A stretch of 64,000 nucleotides of DNA, taken from NCBI GenBank assembly GCA_015956445.1, contig WIUZ02000018.1:558001-622000 (forward strand), written 5' to 3'. The first letter of the stretch is position 1. Each line of letters opens with the position of its first letter. The notes beneath the pieces are model-generated. The model worked only from the letters and a program-made list of their open reading frames with translations, was not told the DNA's origin and did no database searches. The stretch comes from Thelephora terrestris (taxonomy: Eukaryota > Basidiomycota > Agaricomycetes > Thelephorales > Thelephoraceae). Below are positions 4,633 through 33,084 of the stretch, one piece after another. The position numbers and the translations under genes are program-made.

Positions 4633-5688
4633 TGAACAGGGGCTATGTGGGCTAAGGTCCGATGGGGAGAAGATGGGGTGCCCTGTCAACGTCGATGAAG
4701 GTGGTCCTTGGTCGTACGATGCCTCCTAGCTCCGTAGGGACACGTAGGGAACTGTAGGGAAATGTAGTGAAACGTCGGGAACGTCGGGAACGTCGGGATG
4801 TGTAAGGAGAAGTAGATATCAAGAGGGAACTAAAGATAACTAAAGATAACAGAAGGGGATCAATGAAACAGACAAAGGAACGACGAGGGAAAACTTCGGG
4901 ACGACGACGAGAACTTCGGGAGGTCGGGATCTTCGGGATGACGACAGGACGCTAGAGACGACGACGAGAACGCAGGGACGCAGGTATGACGACGAGAACG
5001 ATAGGGAAGACGCAGGAGACTATAGGGAGACGACGACGACGAGAGGAGAACGATAGGGAGAGGAAAACATGGGAATCAGTCCCCTGGATTGGTCTCTGGT
5101 GAGTCTATCGAATACAGAGGCTTATATACTAATCTAGGAGGCTCTGAGAACGTAGGAAGCAAGAGGGAATGAACCAAATGATGTCAAAAGACCTAATGAC
5201 GAGTCTATGACATAGGGAGGGCGAGGGATCGAAGGGAACGACCAAGGAAAGAGATGTGGTTGAGAAATGAACCAAAAGGGAATGATCGAGCATAGGGATC
5301 GAGAGATCGAGGGGAATGGTGTAGGGAGATATCGCGAAGGTATAGGGAAGTCGGGAGAAGGTATAGGGAGGGGTCGCGAATGGTGTAGTGTTGGGAGGGA
5401 TATAGGGAGGTCGGGGGGGGGGGGGGGTAGCGAGAGATAGGGAGAATACTAAAACATCGGGAAGGTCGCGAAGCATCGGGACGAGTAGGTTAGTATAGGG
5501 AAGGGAGTAGTGAGGTAAAGGGAGATATATGGGTATGTAGGGAAGTATAGGGATGCATAGGGGGGGGGTAGGAAGGTATAGAGAGTATAGAAACGTCGCG
5601 AAACGTCGCGAAACGTCGCGAAGCATCCCGAGGGAAAGGGACGTAGGGAATGTCGCCGACGAGTACTCCAGAGAATGGAGGCATGTCA
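4633..5688 (-). repeat. LTR of the gag-only element (downstream copy)
   Basis: It is 1056 bp and appears identical to 8322-9377, including the length of a G homopolymer near 5412-5427. The + strand is built of GGGA-, TCGGGA- and TAGGGA-like words, so the minus strand reads as Pro/Ser/Leu-rich low-complexity frames. Confidence 0.92.
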
Positions 5689-6072
5689 TCTCCTTGGGAC
5701 TTCAGAATACAACCGTCCTCGGTTGTCCAAAGAATAGGGAGGACTCCTTGGGACTTCTGATACCAACTGGCTCGTCCCAATGTGATCCCGAAGAAAATGG
5801 GAGTAAGGGAATGGAGGGGAGCAATATAGGGTGAGAGGATGGGCAAAGGGAGACCTCGGGAGCCAAAAGCAAGCGGTAGGGAGATGTCGAAAATTGGAGG
5901 AAGGGTGTAGGGAAACTTCGGGATGAGTGAAGATGCGGTGAATAAATGAAGGGGGCAGCTGTAGGGAAGCCTCGTGAATGGGAGGGAAACCATAGGGAAG
6001 CTTCGGGAATCAAAGGGGTGTGGTCGGGAGAGGAAGGGAGACGTCCAGATGACTTGCCACTGAGAAGGGAGA

Positions 6073-6843
6073 TCAGAGGAGTGGAACATCGCGATGGTCT
6101 GCTGGGGGAATAGGGAACTGGGGAGTAGGACTACGAACAGATGCAATAGATGAAGAGCTGCTCGAAAACAATAACGGAGGAAGAGAAGCAGAAAAGGGAG
6201 AAAAGTCGGGAAGTGAAAGAGATAGATCGGGAGGGGGATAACATGAATCGTGAAGAGGACTAGATAAATCGTGTGGGAAACAACGGGGAGTAGAACCAGA
6301 ACAAGAGTAGGGAGAAGATTCGTGGTGTAGGGAAGTGGGGGAAGTAGATAGGGAAAGATAATCATCACAGGGATGGGCTAGAGGCGGAGAACCGCAAACA
6401 GAAGGAGGTAGCGAACTCGAATCCTGAAGGGAATGAAATAGGGAAGGAGAACTATGAAGGGAAGTGAATAGCGAAGGGGAATTGTAATGGAAATGTGAAA
6501 ATGGCTTGTGGAGTGAGGAAGATAGGGAAGGGGAGGCTACGAGTGTAAAGGGAGACTGAAGTAATGAGGGAGACTTGAATAGCGAAGGAGAAGGCATGTA
6601 TGATAGTGGGGAAGAGATAGAGGAAGTGTAGGGAGAGGCGAAAGAGGTAGTAGGGAGGCTGTTGGACGAAGATTCGGAACAAGGAGAGGAGAAGGGAGGA
6701 GGGATGGAGACAACCTCAAGCAAAGTTGTAGGGATGGGAGGGTCGCAACTCGCGACTGTAGGGATGTCAGGAGAAGCGTCTTCCGGCCCGAAGAAGGTGG
6801 AAAGGTAGGAATCGAGAAGATCGTCTTCTTCCTCAATGTTCAC
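6073..6843 (-). CDS. Second low-complexity frame of the gag-only element
   Basis: A 256-codon frame starts within the last codons of the Gag frame (the two overlap by a few bases) and runs on to 6073. The product starts with an acidic segment (NIEEEDDLLDS) and is then almost entirely Ser/Pro/Leu/Phe. No domain was recognised. It may be translated by re-initiation or frameshift after Gag, as many LTR elements do, or it may simply be an open frame produced by the biased composition of this element. Confidence 0.35.
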   Translation of the reverse strand: MNIEEEDDLLDSYLSTFFGPEDASPDIPTVASCDPPIPTTLLEVVSIPPPFSSPCSESSSNSLPTTSFASPYTSSISSPLSYMPSPSLFKSPSLLQSPFTLVASPSLSSSLHKPFSHFHYNSPSLFTSLHSSPSLFHSLQDSSSLPPSVCGSPPLAHPCDDYLSLSTSPTSLHHESSPYSCSGSTPRCFPHDLSSPLHDSCYPPPDLSLSLPDFSPFSASLPPLLFSSSSSSIASVRSPTPQFPIPPADHRDVPLL

Positions 6844-8231
6844 GATGGGCTCCTCGCTATCAAAAGAATGATCGCGATGATAGGGAGGCTGTAGCGGTGG
6901 GGAGGCTGGGACAATGTGTAGGGAGGCTCAGGTGCGTAGACAGGCTGAGGGGATGTGTAAAACTGAGAGGAAACATAGGAGAGCTCGGGAGACACGTCGC
7001 GAAGCCGAGCGAAGGTGTGAGAAGGCTGGGGAGGTACTAGGGGGTTTTGGCAATGGATAGGACTGGTCTGGGAATCAGGCTCAGCTTCCCAGGCTCGTTC
7101 TTGTCTTCTCCGTTGGATATCAGCATAGACAGCGTCGAGTTGCGTCGGCGCCAGCTGAAATGGAGAGGGAGACTGAGTAGATGGGCAGGGAGACTGAGGG
7201 GGTGAGTAGGGATGCTGGGGAGATCGGTCGGGAGACTGAGGGAATAGATCGTGAGGCTGAGGAGATAGGTAGGGATGCTGAGGAGATGGGTAGGGAGGTT
7301 CGGGAGGTGGATAGGAACGCTGAGGGGATGGATCGCGAGGCTGAGGGGATGCTGGAGGGGTCTGGTGACGAGGAGGACTAATCTGAGGACTAGTCTCAGC
7401 TTTCCTGCGCAGTTCTTCTCTTCTCTTCGTGAGAACCTCAATACGAGCTTGCCAAAACTCCATCTGCTCCTGCTCAGGGTCGACTCCGCTGTTGTGGTTA
7501 GAACCTGCAGGGGAGTCTGTCCCAAAAGCGTCGCGATGGTTCTGTTCTTCGTCGCGAAGACGTCGAGAGTCCCAATACTTGATGACAAGGTCCTGCAAGG
7601 TTGTTCCAGGAACACTCCGAGGAATCGAGTGTCCAGTGGGAAAAGCGAGTTTCCCAGAGCTGTTGCGGATTATCCATCCCTGCTCAAGGTAGTGAGCAGC
7701 TGTTGGACAACTGCGAACAAGATGTTCGTGCGAATCGCAGAAGACACAGGCTAGGCTCCACCGGGGGGGATTTTGAACTACTCCTCCTGGAGTAGGAGAA
7801 GGAAGACGCTGAGAGTAGGGATGAGCGACCGGATTTAGCGCATTGGTAGCAAGGAGTTCAGCAAACATAGCAAGAAATTCCTCGAATTGTCTATCACGGC
7901 GCTGATGATCGGGAGGATCGCGACCGTCGCGAGGCCTGCTAGCGAAGATAAAGAGTGCAGCTTCATGAACATCATCAAGATGATATACTTTATCATAGGG
8001 CCTTGTTTTCGAGAGCCTCTGACAAATCTCTACCCGGATTGGGTGAGGGAAACCTTGAAGATAGAAAGTGCCACATCGGGAATCACAGAGGTCGTCATTG
8101 TCAACAAGATAGTCGCTCATGGAGAGGAATCGCTCGTAATAGGTGTGGAGCTGTTCGCGATTCATATCCCGATAGTCCGCAGTGTGCTCGATAAGGCGGT
8201 TGAGATCATAGAGGGAATATCCAGTGGGCAT
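6840..8231 (-). CDS. Gag-like protein with CCHC zinc knuckle (Ty3/Gypsy-type)
   Basis: A 463-codon frame. Residues about 20-110 resemble the basidiomycete Ty3-type Gag core (YYERFLSMSDYLVDND, then FYLQGFPHPIRVEICQRL, then DDVHEAALFIF). A CX2CX4HX4C zinc knuckle (CVFCDSHEHLVRSC) follows near residue 175 and would bind element RNA. The C-terminal third is a Pro/Ser/Gln-rich tail of short repeats of the SPQ-P-Y type. Protease and polymerase are absent, so particle maturation and reverse transcription would need a partner element. The family match is from memory of such Gags, not from a search. Confidence 0.75.
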   Translation of the reverse strand: MPTGYSLYDLNRLIEHTADYRDMNREQLHTYYERFLSMSDYLVDNDDLCDSRCGTFYLQGFPHPIRVEICQRLSKTRPYDKVYHLDDVHEAALFIFASRPRDGRDPPDHQRRDRQFEEFLAMFAELLATNALNPVAHPYSQRLPSPTPGGVVQNPPRWSLACVFCDSHEHLVRSCPTAAHYLEQGWIIRNSSGKLAFPTGHSIPRSVPGTTLQDLVIKYWDSRRLRDEEQNHRDAFGTDSPAGSNHNSGVDPEQEQMEFWQARIEVLTKRREELRRKAETSPQISPPRHQTPPASPQPRDPSPQRSYPPPEPPYPSPQHPYLSPQPHDLFPQSPDRSPQHPYSPPQSPCPSTQSPSPFQLAPTQLDAVYADIQRRRQERAWEAEPDSQTSPIHCQNPLVPPQPSHTFARLRDVSPELSYVSSQFYTSPQPVYAPEPPYTLSQPPHRYSLPIIAIILLIARSPS

Positions 8232-8321
8232 GGTAGGTGGCTTTAGTGGGAAGGGGGGAAAGTCGCGAGGGTTAGGGAGCTAATAGGGAGGCAGGGAGAC
8301 TAACACGGTGTGGGTTCCAGG

Positions 8322-10113: not shown

Positions 10114-11267
10114 ATGTCGTCCCAACTTACCTCTCTCGTCCCCGTCCTCGAAGGCCCCAATTTTCAGCGTTGGGCCCCTGCCATGAGGAGCTTCCTTATG
10201 GCGCAAGGACAGTGGAGATTGATGAAGAAGGGAAAGCCCACCAAAACAGTGCGACCATCTATAGCAGCTATCCCTGCCACCGATGAAGCTGATGAAATTC
10301 CGGTGCAGGAGTGAGCTACCGTTGATGTTGATGAAGACATCCTCGACACATGGGAGGAAAACAACATCAAAGCCTTAGGAAACATCTTCCTTAGGCTAAG
10401 CCCTGACATCCAGGCAAAACACAAGTCCCAAGATGATGCTTGGGCCCTATACCAGGCAATTGAGACGGAGTACGGGAAACCCGGAGTAATGGGGATCTAT
10501 TCAGAGTTTAAAAGTGCTCTGGATATACAGATCCCGGGAATGTGGACCCTGTCCCAGCAATTGACAAAATTATGGCCCATTTCAGCCGTCTTGCTGAAGC
10601 CCAGGCTCCAGTCCCAGAGTTTATCAAGGCCATGATGGTCATATCCTGGATGCCCCCCTCCTACGACTACCTCGCCCAGATCATCTGCCAGGCCAACAGT
10701 ATCAATGATGTTAGCATCATCGACTTAAGGAAAATGGTCAAGCTGGCCTGGGAACAAAAAGCTAGCTCCCGTTGTCCCAGACAACAAGCCCAAAAGTTGT
10801 CCAACATACAGCGCGCCCCTGGAAACCAAAATTTCCAGCAGCAACAGCAGCAGCATGACGGGAGCCAGCCCCAGGGCCAGGGAGGCCGCAGACACAACTG
10901 TCGAGGACAAAGAGGTGGACGAGGAAGGTTCCAACAACAAGCACAGCAGATGGAGGAGCCATTCACACCTCCCCCTGGGCTCCCCTTCTCCCCTCAACCT
11001 CCGGTCCCGTCCGGCTCCGGCATGTCAGCCACGGACTACGGCTTTGCCTCTATGGCAGCGTTCCCTCAACGCTCCCTCCCCATCCATCCATCGTGAAGGT
11101 GTGGGGACCCCCTCCTTCTACCCCTCCATACAGAAGGCAAGGGATCTCTCGACACAAATAGGCATCAAGCCCACAATCAAGACCCTCAAAAGACTGGAGC
11201 GCTCCCATGAGCAGACAGTCGACCCTCGCCCCTGTAAAAGGCGCGTACCCCGCCGGGTGAGGATGAG
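10114..11267 (+). pseudogene. Copia Gag region (fossil)
   Basis: Starts with MSSQLTSLVPVLEGPNFQRW, the typical N-terminus of a Copia Gag (UBN2-like core), followed by a helical core and a Gln/Gly/Pro-rich basic stretch near 10800-11050. It is not continuous with the protease-integrase region in this copy. Confidence 0.75.
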
Positions 11268-13054
11268 GTGAGTCTGGGATGGTCAGACAATGAGATGGAT
11301 GTTGTGTTCCCCGTGTCGGTTGCTGGCCCGTCTGGCCTTGGCGGAAGGTACAAAACAAGAATTCAAGTGTTGAGTAACGATGCTAACGATTCCACAGCGG
11401 CTGAAGATAAATGTAATTCTTCAGTAGTAGCTTCCAAATACACTTGTTTGACCTTGTCCGCCCTGAGTGAAACTGAAGCTGTGTGGATGCTTGACTCTGG
11501 AGCATCCCAGCACTTTACCTTTAACATAAATGATTTCATGGAGTATGAGGCTATTGAGTCCATTCCTCTAAGGACTGCGACCAACTTCACAACAATTGTC
11601 AGTAAAGGAACGGTGATCCTCTACATAGATGAAAAGGCCGTCAGACTGAGCCCTGTTTATCACGTCCCGGATATCTCCCACAGACTGCTATCCCTTGGTC
11701 AGTTCCTAAAAAGCAGACTCTTCTCGAGGGGGAGTGCTCGCGAAATCTCGCTTTACGAAGAAGATGTGGAATTCCTTACCTTCCACCCTCAAACCGAGGA
11801 TGACAGTATTTACATCATCAGGACTCTCCTCGAAGCACAACTCACTGCTGCTAAAATTGAGACCATTTACAGTGCTGATTTTGAAATCATGCACCACCGG
11901 CTGGCCCACCCCTCCAAAGAAGTGATCCAAAGGGCCGGGAAACATGTCAAGGATTTTCCTCATGTCGAAATCCCAAAAGAGCACCTCTGCCCCGGATGTG
12001 CACAAGGAAAGATGACAAATAAAACCTTTCCTCCATCCAACACCAGAGCAAGCGTCCCTTTCGAGCTGATCCATTCAGACTTAAAAACCTTCCCCATTGA
12101 ATCCTACCACAAGTACAAGTACTCAATCGTCTTCCATGACGATTACACCTCCCATGCCTGGACCATGAATCTGCGCACCAAAGATGCCGCACTTCCAGCC
12201 ACTAGGCAATTTCTGGCAATGGTTGAGAACAAATACCAAAAAAGAGTACAGCGTTGGATGACTGATGGGGGAGGAGAATACACGTTGGTAGCATACACAA
12301 CAATGCTCAAGGAAAAGGGGATTCAGATCCTCCAATCTATCCCACACACGCACCAACAAAACGGAAGCGCAGAAAGGATCATTCGAACTTTGATGGAAAA
12401 AGCAGAATCCATGAGACTGCAGGCTTGTTTCCCTCAGTCTTGGTGGGAATTCACCCTTGACCACACAACTCACATTTACAACTGAACGCCAAATCATCGC
12501 CTAAATTGGCAGACTCCATTTCAACTATTAAATAGAAGCAAGCCTTCAGTTGATCATCTTCGGGTTCTTGGCTGCGGAGCCTACGTCTTCATCCCGGAAG
12601 AAGTACGGTTGAATAAACTTGCGCCTTGATCGGAATTGATGACCTACCTGGGTAGTCACCCAGGAGGAAAAGGATGGATCTTTATGCGCAGACCTAATAA
12701 TATCATCTTCTCCGCTGCTCAGGCCACCTTTGATGAGTTGCACTTTCCCAAGTGCCCAACTGCCAGTACACAGTGCAACACACAGCTGCAATCTACTGTG
12801 CCACCCCTACCCAGTCATCACTGTCACAAGGACGGTGACTGCTAGTGTCCCCTTCCAGGAGGACAAGAGAGAGATGATGCAGCACCCTCAGCGCGTCCAA
12901 AACCTACCCCCAAGCCTTCCTCAAAAAGCAAGGAACGTGCTGTTGAGCCCGCACCACAGCCACAGATGGCGGTGCAACCTGGAGCGCCCAGTTTGGAGCC
13001 GCCAAGGTCCCCTACCCCCAGCTCTAGCTCCGATTCCGGCCCTGAGGATGCACC
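11268..13054 (+). pseudogene. Copia protease and integrase region (fossil)
   Basis: An aspartic protease motif (LDSGASQHFT) near 11490 is followed by a pre-integrase zinc region (HHRLAHPS ... CPGCAQGK) and the integrase catalytic core (HSDLKTFP, DDYTSHAW, MTDGGGEY, HQQNGSAERIIRTLMEKAE). A C-terminal integrase extension continues to the insertion at 13055. The region is broken in this copy. Confidence 0.85.
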
Positions 13055-13528
13055 TGTCAGGAACATGGTATTTTTAAACTTTTTATAACACGCTCTTTCT
13101 TGAAACTCTTCTTACCATTTCTTATGTTTGAATGCTTCACATTCCTTATCCTTCACTCAAATCATTTAAACACACACAACGTGCAATTCATTCGCAGCGA
13201 ATCGGAACAACATGGCTATATACGGTGCTATCAACGTCCTTTCAAAAGTCCACTCTATCTATGGCGGGCCTCATCATCATCAGTGTTCCATCCCGGAGAT
13301 CGAAGAATTGGCCCCTCCTCGCATGGATCTCCCCGAACATGGCGTCCCCATCCTCCGCGCTCAACTGAACTTCTAGTTCAAGCCGATATGAAGAGACTCC
13401 TTTGAGCGGACCGATCAGCCTCCCAGATGTCACCGAACTGCGGAACACCTGGTCCCACATCTCCATCACCGGGTGACTGTTCGGCAGCACTGTTGACGTA
13501 GTCGAAGAGCGACCCTCTGTCTCCCTCA

Positions 13529-14481
13529 CACTGGGGACAAGGGCACAAATACCCAGTGGGTACATGCTGAACACATTGAGATTACAGTCAACAAGTGATC
13601 ACAATGTACCCAGTGGGGAAAATTTGAATACATTCAAAATGTGCCAGGCTATGTGAATCCATTGTGCCCACTGGGTACATTTTGATTGTGATCACAATGT
13701 ACTCAGCAATGTGATCTCGATGTGCCCAGTGGGCACATTTTGATTGCAATCACAATGTACACATCAATGTGAACTCAATGTGCCTGCTGCGCACATTTTA
13801 ATTTCTTTCACAATGTTCCCATCAATGTGTTCCCAATGTACCCAGCTCATTACATAATAGTTTCTTTCACAATGTTGTCCACAATGTGTCCAGCATGTGG
13901 CTGAGCCACTCATTCAAAATTCTTTCAAAGATTACCCAGTGATGTGTCCATAATGTCCCCAGGGGGTTCTTTTTGAAGTAATCACAATGTAATCTCAATA
14001 TTGTTCAATTTCATCATGAACTTTCAAAGAAATCACTATGTGTATGGCTGTACACATTCTAGACACATCACTGGATACTTTGTGAAAGAAGTTTGAATGA
14101 GTGGCTCAGCCACATGCTGGACACATTGTGGACAACATTATGAAAGAAACTATTATGTAATGAGCTGGGTACATTGGGAACACATTGATGGGAACATTGT
14201 GAAAGAAATTAAAATGTGCACAGCAGGCACATTGAGATCACATTGATGTGTACATTGTGATCGCAATCAAAATGTGCCCAGTGGGCACATTGAGATAACA
14301 TTGATGGGTACATTGTGATTGCAATCAAAATGTGCCCACTGGGCACATTGGATTCACATGGCCAGGCACATTTTGAATGTATTCAAATTTCCCCCACTGG
14401 GCACATTGTGATCACTTGTTGACTGTGATCACAATGTGTTCAGCATGTACCCACTGGGTATTTGACCCCTTGTCCCCAGTG
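13529..14481. mobile_element. 953-bp fold-back MITE of CACTA type
   Basis: Termini are CACTGGGGACAAGGG and its exact complement, flanked by TCA on both sides (3-bp target duplication). Almost the whole element is two inverted arms of about 430 bp, roughly 90 percent alike. Within each arm a unit of about 55 bp (ATGTGCCCAGTGGGCACAT plus a CAATCACAATG segment) recurs several times, resembling CACTA subterminal repeats. No coding sequence was seen. Confidence 0.9.
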
Positions 14482-16656
14482 TCATTGGAGGCCTGGACGG
14501 GATCCTGTACTGCGAGTCGAGTGAGGTGCCTGAGCTGGACCTCCGACTCGACCTGTCGGTTGGGACGGTTGACCCGGTATTGGAAGGGTCGTCCCTCATC
14601 TCAACCAGACTGGTCACCATCCGACTCAACTGGACGTGGATAAGGGTAAGCCAAGGGAGCAATACGATGAGCCAGAGGGCGTCGAGAACGTTTGCAACAC
14701 ACCCCTTAATCACCGGACGTACCTCGGCAACCCTCGGAGCATCTTCAGCCCGGTCAACGACCATGACCTCATCCTCGATCTTCACCAACTGGTGGATCGG
14801 CTGCAGCAGGCAACACTGACAGTTCTCCTTGTCAGACTCGGCCAGAGTGGAAGCCGGACCCAGAGTCGGGATGGGAGCCTCATTCTCTACCGGAGGAGTG
14901 GCGTAGGACAATGGGTTAGGCGATGGGAGTACCACCTTGTCGGCGTACTCCAGCTCGAACGGAAAATCGGCTGTCCCCTGACCAATCAACGCCGGACCTT
15001 CCTTACAGTTGCAGGTCTTGTCCTGCAAGGACTCGACCCGCGCCGTCAACATGGACACCAGATCCTCAAGCTCTTCGATCTAGAAGAAGTCTCTCAGTCA
15101 TTGCATAAACCTGCAAAGGCTGAAAGAACCTTAGCGCTTTCATCCCTGATCTTCTTCGAGTGCCTATCCAGGCGATCATCCCTCGTATCCAAAGCCTTTC
15201 GGATGTTGACGTCCCGAACCTTTAGTCCGGCGACGAGCTCCTGATGGTTGGCAACCATCACTGCCAACGCCTCATTCGTCCCCTGCTGGAAGGTGGCCAT
15301 AGTCTCCTTCATCAAGAGACCCTCTGCAGACAGATGAAGGATGTCTGCCTTCGCCTCCTTCACCTCACGCTCCAACCGTTCAACCTAGGCAGTTTGGTTA
15401 GTCGAGAGTCATACTCGAATATCCAAACGGAAAACCTACCTGGCTTTCCCCCTCTCGAACGAGCGACCACAACAGCGTGGTAGAAGTGGTGGCATGGTGA
15501 ACGGCCCGAGGAACAGTTGCCCCATGCTCCAACAGGTCCTGATCATAGATCCCCCTTTGCAGGGTGTACCAGAGCTCCTTCTTGATCAGATGCTCCAATT
15601 CTCCGAACCTACCCCTCATCTGGAAGATCACCTTCTCGGTGATCATGGACCGGACCCAGAGCTCATCGTCCCAGGTCAACCCCATCAAATGAGGAATTGT
15701 CTCCCTGAGATGTTTGGTGTCCACCTGCTTGACGACCTCCAAGATCTAGAAGACGTTAGCCCAGCATTCTGCCAAAGAACGTACGACCTCTACCTAAGGG
15801 GAAGAGTCAGTGCAAACACAAGAAGCTCTAGCTCCACCTCATACCTGTTCATCCGTGGTATAGGGAACCCCCGCCTCATTGGCATAGGTCTTGCGGTTGG
15901 CGGCACGGCGATCGATGCAAGAGATGGTGGAGATGCTGTTGGCGACCTTGTAGGTATGGTTGTTGGGAAAAGACATTTTGGTAGGATGATGGGGAAGTTG
16001 CTGGTGTTGCTGATCAAGGATGGCTCCAAGAAGACGTCCTTCTTATAGCCTAGATCGGTGATCCTTCACGTGACCTACCTTGACGAACCTCATTGGTCCG
16101 GGTCACATCAACTTCTGCCCCTGTACCATCATTGTTGGCTTACTACATCAAGCTGACACCTCGGCCTGCGGGACGGCCTTGGAAGAACTTCGTTCCAGAA
16201 CACCTAGAACACGCGCGCACTAAAAATAGGTCTCATGACCTTGACGACCCCTTTACGAACCCCTTTACGACTCTGATGACTCACTTATGACATCACAATA
16301 ACAACCAACCCTGGACCCTGATCACACACGTGGACAGTCACATCACAGTCTTCCTAATGGAAGGAAGGAATTGCCGTTAATCGCTAGGAGTGCCTTAGAC
16401 TCCTTTTGGTTAGCCAAGCAAAGGTGGAAGTAGACGTTAGCGTGAAACACTGGTGAATCTGTAATCCCTCATGTCCCATGAGTCTAGGCCCGACCTCCTC
16501 ATGTTCGGACGTACATTGAGGTTGCCACTAGTCCGTGATGCTGTTGCCGCCTACAGACAACAAGGGATGATGCATGGTCCCTTATCTCGGAGCCGCTCGA
16601 AAATTGCACGAAGCAATGAGAGGTTTCCACCTGACCCTTGGGTGTGATCCCCAGGT

Positions 16657-16875
16657 ATGAACTTTCATGACCCCATGCCCCTTTTTCTTTTAGGACTAGT
16701 GTTATCTTTACCCCCATGTTTCATGCGGACATTCGTTATCTCTTATGCAATCCTTCACACGCTAGTAAGGCCCTTTGTCCTTTATTCTCCCACACGTCAT
16801 ATTTGTTTGCTTTCCTTACTTAGTGTTCTCACACTCCTTATCTCCCTTTGTTCTGTCTTGATAAGGGTATATTAG
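16657..16875 (+). CDS. Short hydrophobic frame conserved in both TG...CA copies
   Basis: A frame of about 72 codons, rich in Leu, Ile, Val and Phe (for example MPLFLLGLVLSLPPCFMRTF). The same frame is open, with few changes, in copy 2 at 21160-21360 on the opposite strand of the window, so the orientation relative to the element is the same. It could encode a small membrane peptide, or stay open by chance in a pyrimidine-rich promoter region just upstream of the TATA-like site at 16911. Confidence 0.25.
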   Translation: MNFHDPMPLFLLGLVLSLPPCFMRTFVISYAILHTLVRPFVLYSPTRHICLLSLLSVLTLLISLCSVLIRVY

Positions 16876-17496
16876 GGTATTGACGTCATGGCCACTCCTT
16901 TAGTATAAGTAGCAACTGTGGCTGTATCGTAGTACCTTAGTTTTGTTACCTCAGGAAATCCTCTGCCCTTCTCAGCCCAGTTGCAGTTAAGGCCAAGTCA
17001 GAGTTTTCTGTTTGAACCAAGACATCCCCCATCTGCTCTCCCTCCCGCTCTGCGTGTCAACTGCGCCTCGTAACTATAGAACCCCAGTGTTCATATTAGA
17101 ACACCTCAAGCGTCCAGTCGATCACCTGGTGGAGTCATCAATCCTGTTGTAGGGATAAACCCTTGCTTGTTAAACCGAACGAAGTACGGTTTAGGTTGGG
17201 TTTCCCTTTAGGATTTCGACCTGACTTGTAGTGACCTCGGACAACCTACCGGAAGAATAGAGACGTGATCGTTCTCTCACAGCTAGTTGGACTAGTGAGT
17301 ACTCTGCAGAGTCGGCTCAGTGCACTGGTAGTTGTTGGGGTAGAGTGGCCCTGACAGCACCACCCACTCTGCCAACAATTATGCCTCTGTCACCCATCAA
17401 ACAACGGAAGTCTGGGCGTGAGCAGAAAGTACCGGCCAAGCCCGCAATGTTTACGGCAGTAAACATCCGGTAGAAATAATAAAGTCTACTCGGCGT

Positions 17497-19324
17497 ATGA
17501 AGGACTGGAAGAAGGTTGTTGGAGATTTCTCTGTAGCACCTAGGCGTGGACAAAGTTCAGGAGCAATACCAGTTCCCGGACCTAGCTCTCAGCCCCTTCC
17601 AGAGAGAGAATCCTCTGCTGAAAAAGAGATAGCAGAAGTGTCAGAGTCTGAAGACAAAGTGGAGCAATCCATTGAGCCGTTGGGGTTTACCACCCCTGAG
17701 GAAGACACAAACGCACTTCTGGCTAGGCTATGCCGGGAAGGGGGAGTAGAGCTCCAAAACATCTTAATTTTGAAGGCCATCTCACCAACCGCCAATGGGA
17801 AAACTCCAAAAGAATGGAAATACCGAGATATCGCCACACTACCACAGGCTGAACTCGAGGAATGGAGGACAGCTTGCAACAAAGAGTTGGAAGCTCTTCG
17901 CAAGCGCAAAGTATACAACCTGGTAGAGCGCCCTTGAGGCCGCAAGGTTATCAAAAACTGCTGGGTATTTGACCAGAAACCAGATGGTCGCAAGAAAGCC
18001 TGCTTAGTAGCAAAAGGCTTCTCACAGGTTGAGGGAATGGACTACGATGCTGTGTTCTCCCCTGTTGTCCAATTCAAGACAGTGCGCCTAATATTTGCAA
18101 TGGCTGCTCTCGGAGGATGGGTCCTTAAAGGACTTGATGTTCAAAATGCATATCTATATGGTGAACTCGACGAGGAAATCTACATGGAGCAACCAGAGGG
18201 GTTCGTAGCTCCAGGAAAAGAGACCCATGTTCTCTGCTTAAAGTGTGCCCTCTACGGACTGAAACAAGCCGGACTCGCATGGTGGCAAGCCCTGAAACGG
18301 TCTATGGAAAAGCTCGGATTCAAATCCTTGAGCTCAGATGCTGGGATCTTCATTTACCAGGACAAGGATGGAAGATTCGTAATCGCGTTAATCTACATAG
18401 ATGACGCCATCTTTACCGGACCCCACACAGCGCTTACGGAGCAGCTCAAGGGGGAGTTCATGAAGATATGGGAAACCAGGGATTTAGGGGACTCAACTGA
18501 TTTCCTCCGCATGAGGATCACCAGACATGGCAGCAAGATTTCTATAGATCAATGCGCCTATCTCCAAACGGTCCTTGAGCGATGTGGAATGCAGAATGCA
18601 AAGGTTGCAGCAACCCCTCTCCCAGCCGGGTATGTGCCGACTCCATCGACAGAGGTAGCATGCCCGGAAAGACGAAGCAGGTTCCTTACTATACTTCATG
18701 CTGGGTACCTGACCTGATATCGCCTTCACGGTCACCAAACTTGCGCAATATGCTGCAAACCCGTCGAAAGAGCACGTCGAAAAAGTGCTGTATATCTGCC
18801 GCTACCTAATTGGGACCTCAAAATACCAATTAACCTACGACGGAGACTCTCAGGAAGGTATCTCAGCCTGTACCAACTCAGACTGGGCTTCAGACCCCAC
18901 TCAGAGACAATCCCAAAGCAGATATTTTGTCCGGATGGCAAAAGGACTCATCTCATGGACCTCAAGGGCACAGAAAACTATCGCCCTGTCATCCACCGAA
19001 GCTGAGTACATGGCGCTCTCCGATTGTAGCCGCCAAGTAGTCTGGATGCATACCCTTCTGGGGGAGCTCGGCTACGAACTCAAAGCTATCCCAATCTGTG
19101 GAGATAATCAAGGCTCGATCTTCATCGCCTCAAACCCAGTCACTGAAAAAAGGTCGAAACATATCGACATCCGCTACCATTACATTTGCGAAGTCATCAA
19201 TGACGGACACGTGGTAGTGTACTTCATTCCCAGAGACGACAATCCTGCGGATCTTCTGACAAAAAACCTTGGGGTCGTTAAACTCAGAAAATTCAGAGAT
19301 GCCCTTGGCCTCGAATTCTTCTGA
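17497..19324 (+). pseudogene. Copia reverse transcriptase and RNase H (fossil)
   Basis: RVT_2-type reverse transcriptase: KACLVAKGFSQVEGMDYDAV, GLDVQNAYLYGELDEEIYM, LYGLKQAGLAWW and the catalytic YIDD box near 18400. RNase H follows with NSDWASD, LSSTEAEYMA and KHIDIRYHYI, ending at 19324. It is broken in this copy. Confidence 0.9.
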
Positions 19325-20222: not shown

Positions 20223-20675
20223 GAGACAATCGCTGGTTGATGGCGAGGTCAGTTGGTTTTGGAGGATCGTGAGGGGGTGTGGTGGTGAGTTGAGTATATG
20301 TACCTGCGAAGGAGTGAATGACTAATGCACCCGTGAGACCTCCGTTCGCAGCATCCCTGAGTGCTGAAGGGTGTCCGGTGCTACTCGCTGTCGCACTCAG
20401 TAACTGAGCCTCCATAGCAACAAAGAACATCGTCTGTAAAGCATGCGCAGGCCAATTCAGCTCCACAGTGGAGGGGGGAAGGTCAAAAACCCCACGATTA
20501 AGTGATTGCTGACAACCTATCCTTCCACGACTGGATCAGGTTTTCCCTCGCTTGGTGCCATGCCTCCTCGTCGAAATGGTCCTGGTCGTCCTGGGCCCCT
20601 TGAACACAGAAGAGGGAGAGTATATTAGGTTAGAATGGGGGAACCCATTCGTTTTCGCACACGGACCTACATTGG
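20223..20675 (-). pseudogene. Remnant of a host gene, possibly a fungal membrane-associated protein
   Basis: Read on the minus strand, this stretch continues the sequence at 23978-24120 once the TG...CA element at 20676-23977 is removed. It contains a segment with AWHQARENLIQSWKDRL and then HALQTMFFVAMEAQLLSATA and LTGALVIHSFAG, which look like the membrane-proximal part of proteins common in Agaricomycetes, recalled only in outline. The copy is cut by the Copia 3' LTR at 20222. A host gene interrupted twice is the simplest reading. Confidence 0.35.
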
Positions 20676-23600
20676 TGTCAGGGCCACTCTACCCCAACAA
20701 CTACCAGTGCACTGAGCCGACTCCACAGAGTACTCACTAGTCCAACTAGCTTGTGAGAGAACGATCACGTCTCTATTCTTCCGGTAGGTTGTCCGAGGTC
20801 ACTACAAGTCAGGTCGAAATCCTAAAGAGAAACCCAACCTAAACCGTACTTCGTTCGGTTTAACAGACAAGGGTTGATCCCTACAACAGGATTGATGACT
20901 CCACCAGGTGATCGACTGGACGCTCGAGGTGTTCTACAAGGTGAACGCTGAGGTTCTATAGTTACGAGGCGCAGTTGACGCGCAGAGCGGGAGGGAGAGC
21001 AGATGGGGGATGTCTTGGATCAAACAAGAAACTCTGACTTGTCCTTAACTGCAACTGGGCTGAGAAGGGCAGAGGATTTCCTGAGGTAACAAAACTAAGG
21101 TACTACGATACAGCCACAGTTGCTACTTATACTAAAGGAGTGGCCATGACGTCAATACCCTAATATACCCTTATCAAGTCCGAACAAAGGGAGATAAGGA
21201 GTGTGAGAACGCTAAGTAAGGGAAGCGAACAAATATGACGCGTGGGAGAATAAAGGACAAAGGGCCTTACTAGCGTGTGAAGGATTGCATAAAAGATAAC
21301 GAATGTCCGCATGAAACATAGGGGTAAAGATAACACTAGTCCTAAAAGAAAGAGGGGCATGGGGTCATGAAAGTTCGTACCTGGGGATCACACCCAAGGG
21401 TTAGGTGAGAATCTTCTTGGATGCTTCCTTTGGAGAGGCCAAAGATAGAGACCATGCAGCATCCCTTGTTGTCTGTAGGCGGTAACAGCATCACGGACTA
21501 GTGGCAACCTTATCGTGCGTCCAAACATGAGGAGCGAGGGCCTAGACTCATGGGACATAAGGGATTACAGATTCGCCGGCGTTTCACGCTAACGGCTACT
21601 CCACATTCGCTTGGCTAACCAGAAAGAGTCTAAGGCACTCTTTCTGACTAACGGCGATTCCTTCCTCCGGTTAGGAGACTGTGATGTGACTGTCCACGTG
21701 TGTGATCAGGGTCCAGGGTTGATCGTAATCGTAAAGTCATGAGGGGTCGTAAAAGGGGTTCGTGATGTCATAAAGGGGTCATCAGGGTCTTGAGACCTAT
21801 TTTTAGTGCGCGCGCATTCTAGGCGTTCCGGAACGAAGTTCTTCCAAGGCCGTCCCGCAGGCCGAGGTGTCAGCTTGATGTAGTAAGCCAACGATGATGG
21901 TACAGTGGCGGAAGTTGATGTGACCCGGACCAATGAGGTTCATCGAGGTAGGTCACGTGAAGGATCACCGATCTAGGCTATAAGAAGGACGTCTTCTTGG
22001 AGCCATCCTTGATCAGCAACACCAGCAACTTCCCCATCATCTTACCAAAACATGTCTTTCCCCAACAACCATACCTACAAAGTCGCCAACGGCATCTCCA
22101 CCATCTCCCGTATCGACCGTCGTGTCGCTGCCCGCAAGTCCTACGCCTGTGCAGCGGGGACTCCCTATACCACGGATGATCAGGTATGGGGGAGGTCTAG
22201 AGCTTCTTGTGTTCGCACTAACGCCTTCCTCTAGGTAGAGGTTACGTTCTTTTGGGCGATGATGTCCAGCTAACGACTTCTAGATCTTGGAGGTTGTCAC
22301 GGAAGTGGACGCCGAACGTCTCAGGGAGACGATCCCTCACTTGATGGGATTGACCTGGGACGACGAGCTCTGGGTCCGTACGATGATCGCTGAGAAGGTG
22401 ATCTTCCAGATGAGGGGTAGGTTCGGGGAGTTGGAGCATCCGATCAAGAAGGAGCTCTGGTACACCCTTCAGAGGGGGATCTACGATCAGGACCTGTTGG
22501 AGCACGGGGCGACCGTTCCTCGGGCCGTCCGCCATGCCACTGCCGCCACCTCGTTATTGTGGTCGCTCGTTTGGGAGGGAGAGAGCCGGGTAGGTTCTCT
22601 GTTTGAATATTCGAGTATGACTCTCGACTAATCAAACTGCCTAGGTTGAACGTTTGGAGCGCGAGGTGAAGGAAGCGAAGGCCGACGTCCTTCGTTTGTC
22701 GGCGGAGGGTCTACAGATGAAAGAGACTCTGGCCGCCTTCCAGCAGGGGACGAACGAGGCATTGGAGGCGATGGTTGCCAACCATCAAGAGTTGATCGCC
22801 GGGCTGAAGGTCCGGGACAACAACATCAAGGGGGTGTTGGCCAGGAGGGATGAAAAGGTAGCTTTTCTCATCTCGAAAGACGAAATGAGAAAAGCTGACA
22901 CTTCTTCTAGACTGAACAGCTCGAGGACGTGGTGGCGGTGTTGACAGCGCAGATCGCATCCCTGCAGGATAAGACCTGCAACTGCAAGGAGGGTCCGAAG
23001 TTGGTTGGTCAGGGGACTGCCGACGTTCCGTTTGAGTTGGAGTACGCCGACGAGGTGGTACTCCCATCGCCTAACCCGTCGTCCTATGCGACGCCTCCGA
23101 TCGAGAACGCGGTTCCCGTTCCGACTCCGGCTCCGGCTTCTACGTTGGCCGAGTCCGACAAGGAGAACTGTCGGCGTTGCCCGCTGCAGCCAATCAGTCA
23201 GCTGGTCAAGATCGAGGACGAGGTCATGGAAGTGGACCGGGCCGAAGATGTTCCGAGGGCCGTTGAGGTACGTCCGGTGACAACAGGGCAGCGTTGTAAA
23301 CGCTCTCGACGCCATGTTGCTCATCGCATGGCTCCATCGGCTAACCCATACCCACGTCCAGTTGAGTCGGATGGTGACCAGTCTGGTCGAGGTGGGGGAC
23401 GAGAGTTCCGCTATCGGGTCCACCGTTCCTACCGACAGGTCGAGTCGGAGATCCAGCTTCGCCACCAGCTTCGACTCGCAAGAGAGGATCCCACCCAGGG
23501 GTGTGACGAGGGAGACGGAGGGTCGCTCGCCGACTACGTCGATAGTGCTGTCGAGCAGTCACCCGGTGATGGAGATGTGGGACCAGGTGTTCCAGAGTTC

Positions 23601-23977
23601 GGTGACATCTGGGAGGCTGATCGGTCCGCTCGAAGGCATCTCTTCCTATCGGCTTGAACTAGTCGTTCAGCTGAGTGCTGAAGATGGTGACACCATGTTC
23701 GGGGAGGTCCTTGCGAGGAGGGGCCAGCACTACGATCTCCGGGATGGAAGGGTGATGACCATGAGGCCTGCCGTAGATCGAGTCGACTTTTGAGGACGTT
23801 GTATAAGCATTGTATAGCCAGTTGTTCCGTATTGCCGTGAATGTATGCGCGTTTGTGTGTTTTTGAATGATGGTGTGAAGGATAAGGAATGTGAAGCATT
23901 CAAAACATAAGAAGTGGTAAGAAGAGTTCGAAGAAAGAGTGTGTTATAAAAAGTTTAAAAATACCATGTTCCTGACA
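20676..23977 (+). mobile_element. TG...CA element, copy 2, with 5-bp target duplication ATTGG; looks whole
   Basis: 3302 bp, reverse orientation to copy 1. It starts TGTCAGGGCCACTC and ends ACCATGTTCCTGACA; ATTGG flanks both ends. Layout: about 1.37 kb without a clear gene on the coding strand, then a spliced gene (22052-23793) and a 180-bp tail. The two ends share only TGTCAGG as an inverted repeat and there are no terminal direct repeats. The two copies are clearly diverged, so neither is new, although the target duplications are still exact. Confidence 0.82.
22052..23793 (+). CDS. Unrecognised multi-exon gene carried by the TG...CA element
   Basis: Starts MSFPNNHTYKVANG and ends AVDRVDF. 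About five exons joined by four short GT-AG introns (roughly 22184-22283, 22590-22644, 22858-22910 and 23268-23361), each with a CTAAC- or CTAAT-like branch point or pyrimidine tract; the phases agree and give roughly 480 residues. The second exon is a globular helical part (GLTWDDELWV, GRFGELEHPIKKELWY). The third is a heptad-rich coiled coil (ERLEREVKEAKADVLRL). Two Cys pairs (CNC and CRRC) with Pro-rich and acidic linkers follow, then a basic linker and a conserved C-terminal segment around VMEMWDQVF and ARRGQ. Copy 1 carries a diverged version of every part. Function unknown: a Gag-like or regulatory protein of the element, or a captured host gene. Confidence 0.6.
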
Positions 23978-24724
23978 ATTGGCTCGAGGGTCAGAGGTGA
24001 TATGAGGCTTGAGAGCGGTGTACGGCGGCTTCCGGGACTTTTCCTTCGGGCGGGATGTCTGCGAGAGGGTCGACGCTAGCGGGGCCCTATTTCGTTGGAT
24101 TTCTAATGCCCTGAAAGCCTCTTAGAACTACAAAACCATGCCAATCAGTGTCCGTCACCGCAGTGAGGCCGAGGGATGGCTCACAGGTTAGCATGGACCG
24201 GAAGGGTAAGAATGTTCTGAGGAGATCTTGCGACACCGTACGAGCCATACCGACCGGTTCCCGGAGCTTTCAACCCGCTATACCTGTTATTCGATGCTGT
24301 CGTCGTAGTCAGCCTTGATGCTGTCATCAATATTACCAGTATTGATGGCCCACTCACACAAACGGGGTACGCAAACCCAGGCCAGAATCGGCTCATCCAA
24401 ATCGCCTTCCGGATCCCTTTCCAACACTTGTTGGCCTCGTGCTTGCATTCCCCGTATTGATCGCAAATGGTGGCGGAGACAGCGGGTCAAAGCGTTCCCG
24501 AACTCCGAGCCCAAATCGACCAAACGTTGACCGGTTCGGCAACCGGAAAAATTCAAATCACTCCAGTCGACCAAAGTTTGGTCGGAATTGGTCGGAACGA
24601 AAGTGGCAGGTGTAATTACAAATCACGAAGTACCCGAAACCGACCGAACTTTGGTCGAAAACCGACCTAATCTTTTCCTACAGTGTTATAATCAAATATT
24701 CAAGAACCAAAACTCTGCAGGTCA
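23978..24724. other. No gene called; gene remnant, then a short palindromic segment
   Basis: 23978-24120 continues the remnant described at 20223-20675 on the minus strand. 24120-24540 shows nothing recognisable. 24540-24690 is rich in GGTCGG/CCGACC words, including the 17-base palindrome CGACCAAAGTTTGGTCG near 24572. It may be a hairpin or a worn MITE. Confidence 0.4.
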
Positions 24725-28904: not shown

Positions 28905-31900
28905 GATCAAAACCTCGGTCCACCCACCAATCCTTCAATAGAATGATGCTCGAGCTCGTTCCTCGCCTTGAGAATCGCCGCATGCATCTCCTTCATCGCC
29001 ACGCTCAACTTGGCCCCAAACCTGTTCATGATATCCCGCTGCCACGCGTCATACTTCGCGTTAACCCTCGACTGGACCTGCTCGTAGTCGATGATACACA
29101 CGCCGAAGCTCTTCTGCGTCTCGGACGTGTCGAACGTCGACCGAGCCTTCTTGATCTCGGTCAGGAGTTGTTGCCAGTTCGCGAGCGAGTCTCCGAGGCG
29201 ATTGAAAACGTATTCGGCTTCGAGATCCCAGAGGGACTGGAACTGCAACCACTTGCCGACGTACTCCTTGAGCTGCTGAACCTTGTTCTCGATCAACGCA
29301 AACGGATGTTGGAGGGTGTTATCCGTAAACCGCGTAAGCTGTGGGGCGTCAGTCCTAGGAAGAACGAAGAACCAAGTCACCGCCCCATACCAATGAAGTA
29401 TAGGTCGTTTCCGATACTGTAGCACTCTGCATCTGCAACCCGATCTCGTACCTCGAACTCTGGATCCGACGTAATCGACAAACAACACCTAGATGCCTCG
29501 TCAGGTGCCGTGTCACATCGCACTTTATATCTCTCCACTTCACCTATCCAATCGTGTAGTTGTCTGACCCATGACTGTCGCGCATACTCGATGGGTGGGT
29601 CAAGGAAGATGACCTGGTTCTGGATCCTGATTTCATGTATGATCGGCTTGACGGCCATATGTCCCTCGAGAAACTAAACCGCCAACGTTCGGTCGACAAC
29701 ATATCTAAACATGGGGACCACACACCTTCTCGTCCTTGGGCCTCTTGTCGGACCGACGTTTACTGGACACCTCTCGTGTATGATCCCGCCGAGTATCCGC
29801 GTCGTCCGTCCTGTCAAACTCGGCGCACCATACCAGGATGATCTGCGTGAGGCGCTTGAGAAGGATCAATTCGATCTTCTTGTCCAGTTCCGCAACCCAA
29901 TGTTCGAGGTTGGCGTAGCCCTCCAGATTCAGGCGATCGATCTGACAAAGGCATTCAGCCAAGACTCGTCAACCAAAAAGCCTCTTACGCACAGCAGCTT
30001 GGATCTGATTCAGCAGTTCCGTGAACGCTTCGGTGGTATACGAACAAGTCGAAAGATCATCCACCGCCCGTGATATCTCTTTGTAAAGATCAATGACGTT
30101 GTTGGTTTTGTCCTACCCGTCGCGTTCGTAAATCGTTTGCGGCACATCGGGGACGTGAACCCTTACCTGTAACACAGAGACGACAGACGCAAACTCCCTG
30201 ACGAATTGGATGTGTCGATTGTCCCGAGCCTCAGAGCTTGGAATGTATCTCGATCCATCGTATTGACTGACGAAATGATCCCACCGGATGTTCATCCCTG
30301 CCCTTGGGTCAGCGCCGTCTCGCCCCGAGTTTCAAAAGGCTTACCTCTCGAAACCATTCTCTGAGATTCGTTCCTATACTCGGCGACGAGCCACTCGATA
30401 TCCTTGTTATTCTCCACGAGGTCCAGCGTCTGACCGTACATCCTGACCGTCTCCATCAAACTGACGGCGTGCGGGTATACCCTCTTCGCGTCCTTCGCCA
30501 TATTCGTTATGCCATGCGGCACCTGGAACCCCAACCACAGCAAGTTCCGGACTTCCTTGAACAACGTGATGATCTGGGGGTCAAAGTTCACCGCAAGCTG
30601 GTACCCCCCACCACGGAGCCTAACGATCTCAAACAGCCGTCCATTGACACCCATCCCTCTCCGATTGATGTCCTGGAGCCAAGCATCGAAAACGGGCCGA
30701 GTATCCAGCTTCCTGACAAATGCGGTTGATTCGGCTTGAAGTTTTTGACCTTCGGCGTACAGTTCCCATCCCTTCCCGAGGACGTCTTCCACTCGCTTCA
30801 TGTATGTGAGTAGCTGGTTTTCGATCTGACGCGCCCAGATGATCGCTCCTGCAAGCGGGGGAAGGTCTCGCATTTGTGCCATATGATACGCCTCAGAAGA
30901 CCGATACTGCGTCTTGAACTTTAATTCAGAAAACGAAAAATCAGCGCTTATACCGGGTTAGACCATGAAAGGTAAAACCTTATCGTGCAAACGCTTGATA
31001 TCCTCCTTGACAGTATCGATGAGCTGGGTCTGGTACTCTTGGATGGCTCCACGGATCTGAAGGACCATTCAGCGACGCGACGTTAGCGTTGCAGATTTTG
31101 GTCTTACCTTTGGACGAACAAAAAGGGCGTTGAACTTTGAGAACACCCTAAACATCTCGTTCGCGTTCCTGGCTGTTCCCAGTCGATCCCTGAGGCGGGC
31201 AATGATCTGGTTTTCCACCCTAGCTACGCGCTCGTTGTATGCGTTCTCGGCGGTGACCCATATCTCGGTTCCCTCTATCGTAGGACCTGATCAGCTGCCA
31301 AAACGCGGTCAAGGGTTGCAAGGGGACGCACCAACTGATACGTCAAGGACGTCGATCCTCTTCATGACTTCATACGCCTCCTTCACCTCTTCCTCCATAT
31401 CGATTCCTCCAACCTCGATCCCCACTACTCCCAACCCTTTCGTGGGACCCGTCATCACCGCCAATTGCTCGTGCTGCTTCCTCCACTCCTTCAGATACCT
31501 CGTCCGTTCCTGCAATTTGTCGTGAGCGGGCACGACCTTGATCGGAATGAACTTTTCCGATCGTTTCCTGCTCAGTTCACGAGCGACGTCCGTGAAACCT
31601 TTCATCGAGTCGTCCCAGGTACGGAAGATATTCATCACTTGTGTCAGAAGGCGTTCAAAAGTGTCGTAGGGGGTATAGAGGAGTCGGTGGGAGGTGAGTA
31701 CGCGTGTGAGTTGTTCGTTGAAATCCCGCGAGATGGCCTCGACGAGTGGGAGGGCACGGCGGATGGGGTATGGGGCGACGCGAAGCTTTCGATTGATGTG
31801 ACCGAAAATGAGCACCAAGGATTCTTGGATCTTGTCAAGGTCCGTGGCAGACAGCAGTTCATTCAGAGGGAAATCTTTCATCAGTTGGTTGTACTTGTGC

Positions 31901-33084
31901 ACTGGAACGGATCTAAGATTAGTTCCCGGAGCACGACTTGGACAGACGCGTTGAATGTACCAATGTCTGTTGCCTCCTTCAGACCGGTGTCGGCTATGAA
32001 ACTGACCGTAGCGTGATACCGTTTCGCGTTCCGAAGACAGTCCATAATCATGAGAACGTCCTCGCTACGAAGTTGAGTTTCGATGCCTTCGAGAGCTCTC
32101 TCCAGACTGAGCCAAAAGTTGATTTCTTGCGAGGCCGTCCCAGAAGACACGTCTCTGCTCAGTTTGGTCACTGCTTGGATGGACTTGATCCACTGGTTCA
32201 CGTGAGAGTGCAGGGCATTCAGGAAACTGCTGTCGCTCAGCAGTTTCGGAGGGATGTCGTTGATGCTCGGTCGCGATCCTTTGGCCTGGGCCTGTTCGAC
32301 GGCTTTCTGGATTACGGGGTGGATGATTAGGTGTGTTTCTGGAATCTCGACATTTTGCTGAAGGTGAAGCAGCGATAACTCAAGTTCCGCAAACTTCTTC
32401 TTCGTCATCGGAATACCTAAGCAACGACTCAGCCATCCTTCCCACCGCTACTTCAATGAGTACAACTTACCCATTTTGCTGTCGTTGTCTTTCACACCTC
32501 CTCGTGAGCCGACGAAAGCATCAAACCATGGCTTCACCCCACAGCTGACAACCGCGTGCAAACTCTCGTACGGCGTCTCTTCTCCGCCGAAGAGGTTCAG
32601 GAAATGGAGTTGGGAGGATAAGGGTGCAGTGGGGTCCAGGATCGGTGTTCGTTTGATTAAAGCCAGAGTGGTCGCGTTCGAGACATGGTAAGCGAGCTGG
32701 GTGGTAAGCTGGTACTTGAAAGTCGACACTCCTTCGTCTGCAGCCAAGAACCGCAACATAACAAATTTGGATCAAAAAAGAAAAGAAAGGTAACTCTTAA
32801 CTGAGAGGAATGTCGCGGAAAGACGAACCTTCGAGGTCATCCCGCCGTTTCACGACGTAGATCACGTCGGAGCCTTCACCCGCGAACTTTGACACGGTTT
32901 CGTCAAAGTCTTCCGACTCAAACAGATCGTCCAACTCTTCGGGCAACGCTCCTATCACGGGTGGAAGTAAGGCGGATAAGTAGGATCGAAAGAGAGAAAC
33001 GTCGAATTGAGTGGTGGGTTCGAGGAGCCCATCGTGGTGTCCGTTTGTCCCGTTTACCGGCACTGGTGTCAAAGGGAGTTCCAT
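28905..33084 (-). pseudogene. dyn1: Cytoplasmic dynein heavy chain, tail part only, 3'-truncated
   Basis: Starts MELPLTPVPVNGTNG at 33084 and follows fungal dynein-1 heavy chain tails closely through many exons: [152 protein letters not shown] and 'KARNELEHHSIEG'. This covers the N-terminal tail (DHC_N1) and the start of the linker region, about 1,100-1,200 residues. Similarity stops at HSIEG near 28930; the next conserved segment (around AVTFI) and the whole AAA+ motor are absent. A full heavy chain exceeds 4,000 residues, so this locus cannot make a motor. It is either a partial duplicate or a gene cut by rearrangement. The frames retained look well conserved, so the break may be recent. 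Confidence 0.85.

Follow-up and report, generated by a model that had tools for sequence, protein, structure and literature searches.

The TG...CA units A and B in a 64,000-nucleotide stretch of the Thelephora terrestris genome (contig WIUZ02000018.1, positions 558,001 to 622,000; hereafter the window) are, as judged from the sequence, solo long terminal repeats (LTRs). They derive from a Ty3/gypsy chromovirus that looks Tf1-like and self-primed, and whose U3 region has been enlarged to about 2.9 kb by a complete predicted antisense gene; taken as a whole, this account is very probable. Unit B (window positions 20676–23977, 3,302 bp, with the gag-pol strand of the full elements on the minus strand) starts on the plus strand with TGTCAGGGCC, finishes with TTCCTGACA and is bracketed by the target site duplication (TSD) ATTGG at 20671–20675 and 23978–23982. 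Unit A (13055–17356, gag-pol strand plus) lies between GCACC duplications at 13050–13054 and 17357–17361, belongs to another subfamily and is, on its reverse strand, approximately 86% identical to B. The TGTCAGG/CCTGACA ends and the exact 5-bp duplications of both units had been reported in a preliminary description of the window, and re-reading of the sequence found them as claimed. The same description stated that terminal direct repeats are lacking, which agrees with a blastn comparison showing no internal direct repeat in A or B outside an insert in A. This 953-bp fold-back sequence at 13529–14481, which resembles a miniature inverted-repeat transposable element (MITE), has 429-bp arms that are 93% complementary and a TSD of TCA, and its presence explains why A is approximately 1 kb longer than B. 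The MITE-like insert has CACTGGGGACAAGGG ends and, judged from these, is perhaps of the CACTA type.

The full-length parent element

The preliminary description had offered two readings, a giant solo LTR that carries a gene in antisense or a new non-autonomous integrase-dependent element, and had suggested a search for a full element with two repeats of about 3.3 kb around gag-pol. The genome-wide search identified such an element on contig C1 (C1:546891-559509), with two 3,301-bp LTRs that differ at 2 sites, a 6,017-bp interior and a 5-bp TSD, GATTA, on either side. Unit B is 92% identical to both of these LTRs from end to end, and 93–94% identical to two further LTRs. Both A and B are thus single LTRs that match those of a full chromovirus and are flanked by TSDs, as is characteristic of solo LTRs, and the first reading was borne out. 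The second became superfluous, since the unit is the LTR itself and the primer-binding site (PBS) and polypurine tract (PPT) of the C1 element sit outside it. Once the full C1 element had been found, a novel transposon of the DNA type and an integrase-dependent element were both dropped as candidates.

Two frames in the interior of the C1 element, both oriented opposite to the gene in the LTR, encode gag (681 aa, including a zinc knuckle) and pol (1,322 aa). Pfam domains in pol are protease, reverse transcriptase (RT), RNase H, integrase, SH3_Tf2-1 and chromodomain, and the order protease-RT-RNase H-integrase-chromodomain is that of a Ty3/gypsy chromovirus. The TG...CA pair around gag-pol and the short TSD (GATTA on C1, and AACTG in a related element on contig C5) are likewise as in Ty3/gypsy elements. 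Only about 20 nt separate pol from the 3' LTR.

Interior bases 3-14 of the C1 element, the PBS, are the exact complement of LTR positions 2881-2892 in the gag-pol sense, a match of 12 nt located 34 nt downstream of a TATA box at LTR position 2847. This layout looks like Tf1-type self-priming, and that of the second element family described below does likewise. Since the self-primer match puts the start of R at LTR position 2881, U3 would be approximately 2.88 kb long. The corresponding features of B lie on the minus strand; the TATA box of the gag-pol promoter is placed by position at 21127–21131, and the predicted 5' end of the gag-pol RNA (start of R) at 21086–21097, the exact complement of the C1 PBS.

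A tandem array of the form LTR-interior-LTR-interior-LTR was observed on contig C23 (C23:1029462-1051374, loci L072-L074), with a period of 9,310 bp and a single outer TSD, CATCA. The parts of its LTRs that were compared differ by at most 0.1%.

A predicted spliced antisense gene within U3

The gene in B extends from the ATG at 22052 to the TGA at 23793 on the plus strand and encodes 479 aa in five exons (22052-22183, 22284-22589, 22645-22857, 22911-23267 and 23362-23793). The four predicted introns of 100, 55, 53 and 94 nt are all GT-AG and of phase 0. The gene occupies LTR positions 185-1926, wholly within U3 and antisense to gag-pol, and a putative TATA-like box of its own, also present in A, lies approximately 70 nt upstream of the ATG (21979–21984, plus strand). 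An optional 6-nt microexon at 22235-22240 in the first intron would give 481 aa instead of 479; it is less favoured, as the donor of its intron is absent in some copies and a single 100-nt intron suits 31 of 31 sequences. The gene in A (13242–15976, minus strand) has the same exon order, and its pieces give 62–82% identity by tblastn. Thus, the described gene of about 480 codons is the same in both units, open in B and broken in A, where the insert at 13529-14481 splits the last exon.

The frame and the splice sites are kept, counting from roughly coding base 25 onward, in 26 of the best 30 loci ranked on the last 400 bp, a set that includes B itself and three loci from one tandem array; the disrupted ones are L051, L054, L056 and L058. 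Among 31 intact sequences, some of which are duplicates, exon lengths are constant (exon 1 is whole in 7). Three of the four introns vary in length, with GT/AG ends in 31 of 31 sequences, again with duplicates. At the level of sequence, this pattern supports splicing of the predicted gene.

The last exon of the family-1 gene, termed exon 6 in the exon searches, was stop-free in all of the best 150 of 464 candidates. It flanks RT on both sides, on the opposite strand, in five of the eight family-1 elements (on C1, C4 and C11, and two on C12), and the C23 array, with two RTs, likewise carries the LTR gene. For the eighth RT element, on C56, exon 6 was not among the matches listed. When both element families are considered, the gene was observed next to RT, and in the opposite orientation, in 10 of the 11 RT-bearing elements. 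At the level of sequence, a retrotransposon LTR as the site of a complete, predicted intron-bearing antisense gene is well shown.

The arrangement is shared by a second family

A DNA search with pol identified 8 close and 3 diverged copies, and a search with RT gave the corresponding 8 matches at 99–100% and 3 at 78% identity; other RT matches (96 in all) were 28–50% identical along all or part of the query. The three diverged copies belong to family 2. The LTRs of its element on C5 are 2,932 bp long (1119263-1122194 and 1128062-1130993), with zero differences across the 383 bp compared; this element has a TSD of AACTG and a self-complementary PBS of 11 nt located 35 nt after the TATA box. As DNA, the family-2 LTR matches B only in pieces of 23–62 bp.

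Analysis by tblastn revealed an antisense gene at the equivalent place and strand in all three family-2 elements (29–33% identity, E 2e-18 to 5e-20). Four exons align between the families, with z-scores against shuffled sequences of 4.8, 11.2, 10.5 and 5.1, and both proteins have a CxC motif; the demonstrated homology comprises these four exons, outside the C-terminal parts. Three phase-0 introns are at corresponding places, the third being less certain since the preceding exon has 89 codons in one family and 71 in the other. In exon 3, the main exon of family 2, identity between the families is 38% with 26 invariant columns, as compared to 78% for RT. Exon 3 flanks RT on the opposite strand in each of the three family-2 elements (C5, C12 and C23) and was stop-free in 139 of the best 150 of 568 candidates. 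The comparison shows that the predicted gene, its strand, its place and the corresponding introns are conserved across two element families.

Selection on the encoded protein

A comparison of synonymous and non-synonymous change across copies, as suggested in the preliminary description, gave a mean non-synonymous divergence (dN) of 0.036 and a mean synonymous divergence (dS) of 0.264, with a ratio of 0.137, for 351 pairs of 27 copies. B itself and disrupted or duplicate sequences (L039, L051, L054, L056, L058, L063-L065, L073, L075 and L076) were dropped from this set, the near-identical pairs L069/L071 and L072/L074 were retained and A was handled apart. The ratio was 0.07–0.16 when B was compared with each of the other copies, and 0.18 for A against B over all exons except the last (dN 0.102, dS 0.562). 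It climbs to 0.3–0.6 at codons 301-420. For three family-2 copies (three pairs), the corresponding ratio of non-synonymous to synonymous differences per site (pN/pS) was 0.03–0.055. These values show purifying selection on the gene at the level of the predicted protein.

The synonymous divergence was observed to fall toward the C-terminus, with pS values of 0.08–0.09 at B codons 361-479 and 0.20–0.32 upstream. The drop is in part an effect of ranking by the 400-bp query, and recombination or an overlapping U3 function possibly also contributes.

A functional antisense transcript, rather than a protein, has been raised as an explanation for the antisense open reading frames (ORFs) of other elements in passages of PMC7264820, and could here regulate the element as double-stranded or long non-coding RNA. 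However, the variable sites are mostly in the third codon position (124, 86 and 289 at positions 1, 2 and 3, of 480 each), exon lengths are constant where three of the four introns are variable, and the protein is kept where the DNA has diverged. Together with the low ratios for B and for family 2, this makes regulation by the transcript very improbable.

The time at which selection acts was approached through the frequency of variants in 25 intact copies, for which the neutral expectation is 2.37 non-synonymous changes to 1 synonymous change. The observed ratio was 97:89 for variants present once, 40:74 for those in 2-3 copies and 35:75 for those in four or more; 88 sites at which three or more different bases occur were excluded, and variants that are single in this sample may predate insertion and are not necessarily private genome-wide. 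The stronger constraint on older variants fits selection acting while the elements replicate. An alternative is that the host selects the gene, which would then be a domesticated, dispersed multigene family merely residing in LTRs. There are hundreds of copies, the scored last exons of family 1 and main exons of family 2 are stop-free in the proportions given above, and amino-acid changes are depleted even among the variants present once. However, the two element families share the place, strand and corresponding introns of the gene beside RT, and the tighter shared variants fit selection mainly before insertion. Moreover, no copy outside an LTR was noticed among the matches listed, although no search was aimed at such copies. 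We consider selection by the host improbable.

Most copies are solo LTRs or fragments

In whole-genome searches with the two ends of B, the best 40 of 443 and the best 40 of 442 first-look candidates were 95–100% identical to the query. The pattern of the U5-side end was found at 578 places in the genome with at most 2 mismatches, as compared to 1 place for the reversed control, and that of the U3-side end at 416 places, as compared to none; both counts are far above what chance would give. Since the family-2 end differs from the U5 pattern by only 2 bases, the number 578 spans both families and 416 is therefore the better figure for the family of B. The whole-genome RT search gave 8 copies for family 1 and 3 for family 2. 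Thus, there are 416 LTR ends for 8 RTs in family 1 (approximately 50:1) and about 160, estimated as 578 minus 416, for 3 RTs in family 2, so that most copies are solo LTRs or fragments.

From 100 listed places per pattern (contigs C1-C8), pairing gave 49 LTRs of 3,243–3,335 bp, and only 5 neighbour pairs among them were 5–9.5 kb apart. One of these pairs, on C3 and 9.4 kb apart, was tried as a full element and rejected; its two members are solo LTRs, each with a TSD of its own (AGCAG for one, CTAAT for the other). Of 12 LTRs for which both flanks were available, 8 have an exact 5-bp TSD, as do A and B.

In principle, the abundant TG...CA unit might itself be mobile, an LTR-sized element that is mobilized by integrase from the full elements and served by its own gene. 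The excess of LTR ends over RT copies, the integrase-type ends with TSDs and the many lineages without a full copy in the sample would all be expected in that case. However, the unit coincides exactly with the LTR of a full element, and since it contains neither PBS nor PPT it could not be reverse-transcribed by the known route. Recombination between LTRs accounts for the TSDs and the abundance alike, and we regard independent mobility of the unit as extremely unlikely.

Three other arrangements were observed. Two near-full LTRs at C4:1357558-1366052 are on one strand and only 5,195 bp apart, perhaps representing two solo LTRs or a non-autonomous element with a short interior. Another two, at C1:3256854-3269295, are on one strand and 9,194 bp apart with no RT match between them; they would be either an element whose interior is of another kind or two solo LTRs. 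At L079:357-987, a family-1 LTR end of approximately 630 bp abuts the start of a family-2 LTR exactly, perhaps a nested insertion.

Proposed mechanism and function

We propose that the introns of the LTR gene survive each replication because the gene is antisense to the genomic RNA, from which they would not be spliced out. The single U3 of the RNA would be copied into both LTRs, so that each new insertion would receive two copies of the gene. Recombination between the LTRs, aided by 3.3 kb of homology, would soon delete gag-pol and spare one intact gene, and the genome would therefore fill with gene-bearing solo LTRs. Intron survival, gene doubling and recombination to solo LTRs are, taken jointly, highly probable. 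It is further proposed that the LTR protein works in trans to the advantage of the element, and a benefit to the element of this kind appears somewhat probable.

The preliminary description had found nothing resembling a polymerase or integrase in the B gene, consistent with our Pfam search, which gave no such family. It had also claimed a coiled coil. With a home-made heptad score tested against shuffled sequences, this holds for family 2, where 0 of 2,000 shuffles scored as high, and is only weak in B (P 0.08). The middle of the protein is helix-like. The bZIP_1 match is below threshold (E 0.32, 11.6 bits, cut-off 27.6), the LTR protein thereby differing from an HBZ-like bZIP protein, and there was no Pfam match to the TRP28 domain known from Retand. 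Among viral contigs in IMG/VR, 24 pattern matches were obtained, none of them a relative.

The protein is conserved within each family and diverges fast between families alongside the LTR DNA, which would best fit an LTR-specific regulator. As a model for function only, and not by sequence relation, we use VANC of the Arabidopsis VANDALs, which are DNA transposons. As described in PMC10398659, VANC is an element-coded anti-silencing factor that acts in trans and is linked to rapidly diverging noncoding sequence within its own family. Anti-silencing or activation on this model is our leading guess for the LTR protein, although anti-silencing in particular is doubtful.

The reverse role is that of a repressor, by which the protein would restrain its own family as a copy-number brake accumulating in solo LTRs. 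The self-limitation of Ty1 is such a form of copy-number control, and few full copies stand against hundreds of gene copies. As described in passages of PMC10186651, the HBZ and APH proteins, which are antisense-coded from spliced transcripts, reduce viral replication or transcription from the sense LTR. However, recombination between long LTRs explains the scarcity of full copies equally well, and a brake is harder to maintain by selection at the level of the element. Repression thus seems unlikely, and activation or anti-silencing on the VANC model is weakly preferred over the HBZ model on the basis of these analogies.

Solo LTRs are usually regarded as promoter debris. Here, most of those sampled carry a complete predicted gene with signs of selection, so that the loss of gag-pol spares the accessory gene. 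On a bolder reading, which is less likely than not, the LTR would have become a self-contained gene cassette and the solo LTRs a dispersed, expressed bank of a trans-acting protein that governs the few full elements and perhaps host chromatin; solo LTRs would then be active gene carriers rather than dead remains. The system opens to test why antisense genes are kept, how introns outlast reverse transcription and whether silencing or copy number is under the control of LTR proteins. A further lesson is that LTR genes may underlie large families of hypothetical proteins in genomes of this kind.

Several observations weigh against this proposal. The samples in which intactness was scored were ranked by similarity, which favours young, well-kept copies, and the 30 loci begin about 25 bases past the ATG, which leaves most start codons outside the sample. 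A matching TSD is absent in 4 of the 12 LTRs (L012/L049, L015/L046, L018/L062 and L021/L048). Most sampled LTRs are approximately 5–9% from their nearest sampled neighbour and few full elements exist, so that most parent lineages lack full copies in the data from this genome. Neither Pfam nor PDB gave a significant match for the LTR protein, and the heptad score of B is weak, as noted. Finally, the variants present once are still short of amino-acid changes relative to the neutral expectation, and selection may act on resident copies after insertion.

Comparison with known systems

Tf1 and Tf2 are the closest chromoviruses in organization. The self-complementary PBS, SH3_Tf2-1, chromodomain and 5-bp TSD of Tf1 are all found here; the LTRs of Tf1 are short and are not known to contain a gene, whereas those described here are approximately 3 kb and contain one. 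The sag gene of mouse mammary tumour virus is located in U3, and thus in both LTRs, as is the LTR gene, but sag is a sense gene and the LTR gene is antisense and has introns.

Antisense accessory ORFs of plant elements are mostly located between pol and the 3' LTR, and gene23 of Grande is reported to have its own promoter, according to passages of PMC7264820 and PMC11963269. In the available passages, Grande gene23, RIRE2, Retand (TRP28) and PvRetro13 likewise have a conserved antisense protein gene with no function assigned. Their gene, as described there for the Grande and Retand kind, is interior and present once per element, and none would be expected in solo LTRs. Boty-like Gypsy elements of Botrytis have an additional antisense gene, brtn (passages of PMC7264820 and PMC8365987), and the review depicts it in a figure as one example of additional ORFs. 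This is a fungal Gypsy antisense gene as here, likened by description, and the passages contain no statement of an LTR location. The LTR gene departs from the interior placement between pol and the 3' LTR of Grande, Retand and Boty, as it lies at LTR positions 185-1926.

For human T-cell leukaemia virus type 1 (HTLV-1), passages of PMC10186651 describe HBZ as a nuclear bZIP protein encoded by a spliced antisense transcript from the 3' LTR, and include APH proteins (APH-2/3/4) that lack bZIP. HBZ and APH-2/3/4 thus share a spliced, antisense, LTR-driven gene with our element, but they belong to animal retroviruses and these passages do not place the gene wholly in the LTR. For the Podospora element crapaud, the available passages describe variable LTR halves and mention no antisense gene. 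Among the titles and opening parts of abstracts listed by searches of the open-licence literature for genes inside LTRs, none described an antisense gene that lies wholly in a retrotransposon LTR and persists in solo LTRs, which does not prove its absence. As read from the sequence, the element is of a known kind, a Ty3/gypsy chromovirus with a putative antisense accessory gene, and its arrangement is new, with the gene in the LTR, doubled in each provirus, its introns kept, and preserved in many solo LTRs.

Other features of the window

A Ty1/copia gag-pol extends over window positions 11238-19324, with integrase at 11238-12485 and RVT_2 at 17938-18717, and solo LTR A appears to have inserted into it. 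Long, overlapping proline/serine-rich frames at 5490-8279 on the minus strand, one of them with a CCHC-like motif recognized by eye, are perhaps a retroelement gag. Two host genes were also observed on the minus strand, one encoding the N-terminal region of a dynein heavy chain (30292-32064) and the other a DEAD-box helicase (54917-56077).

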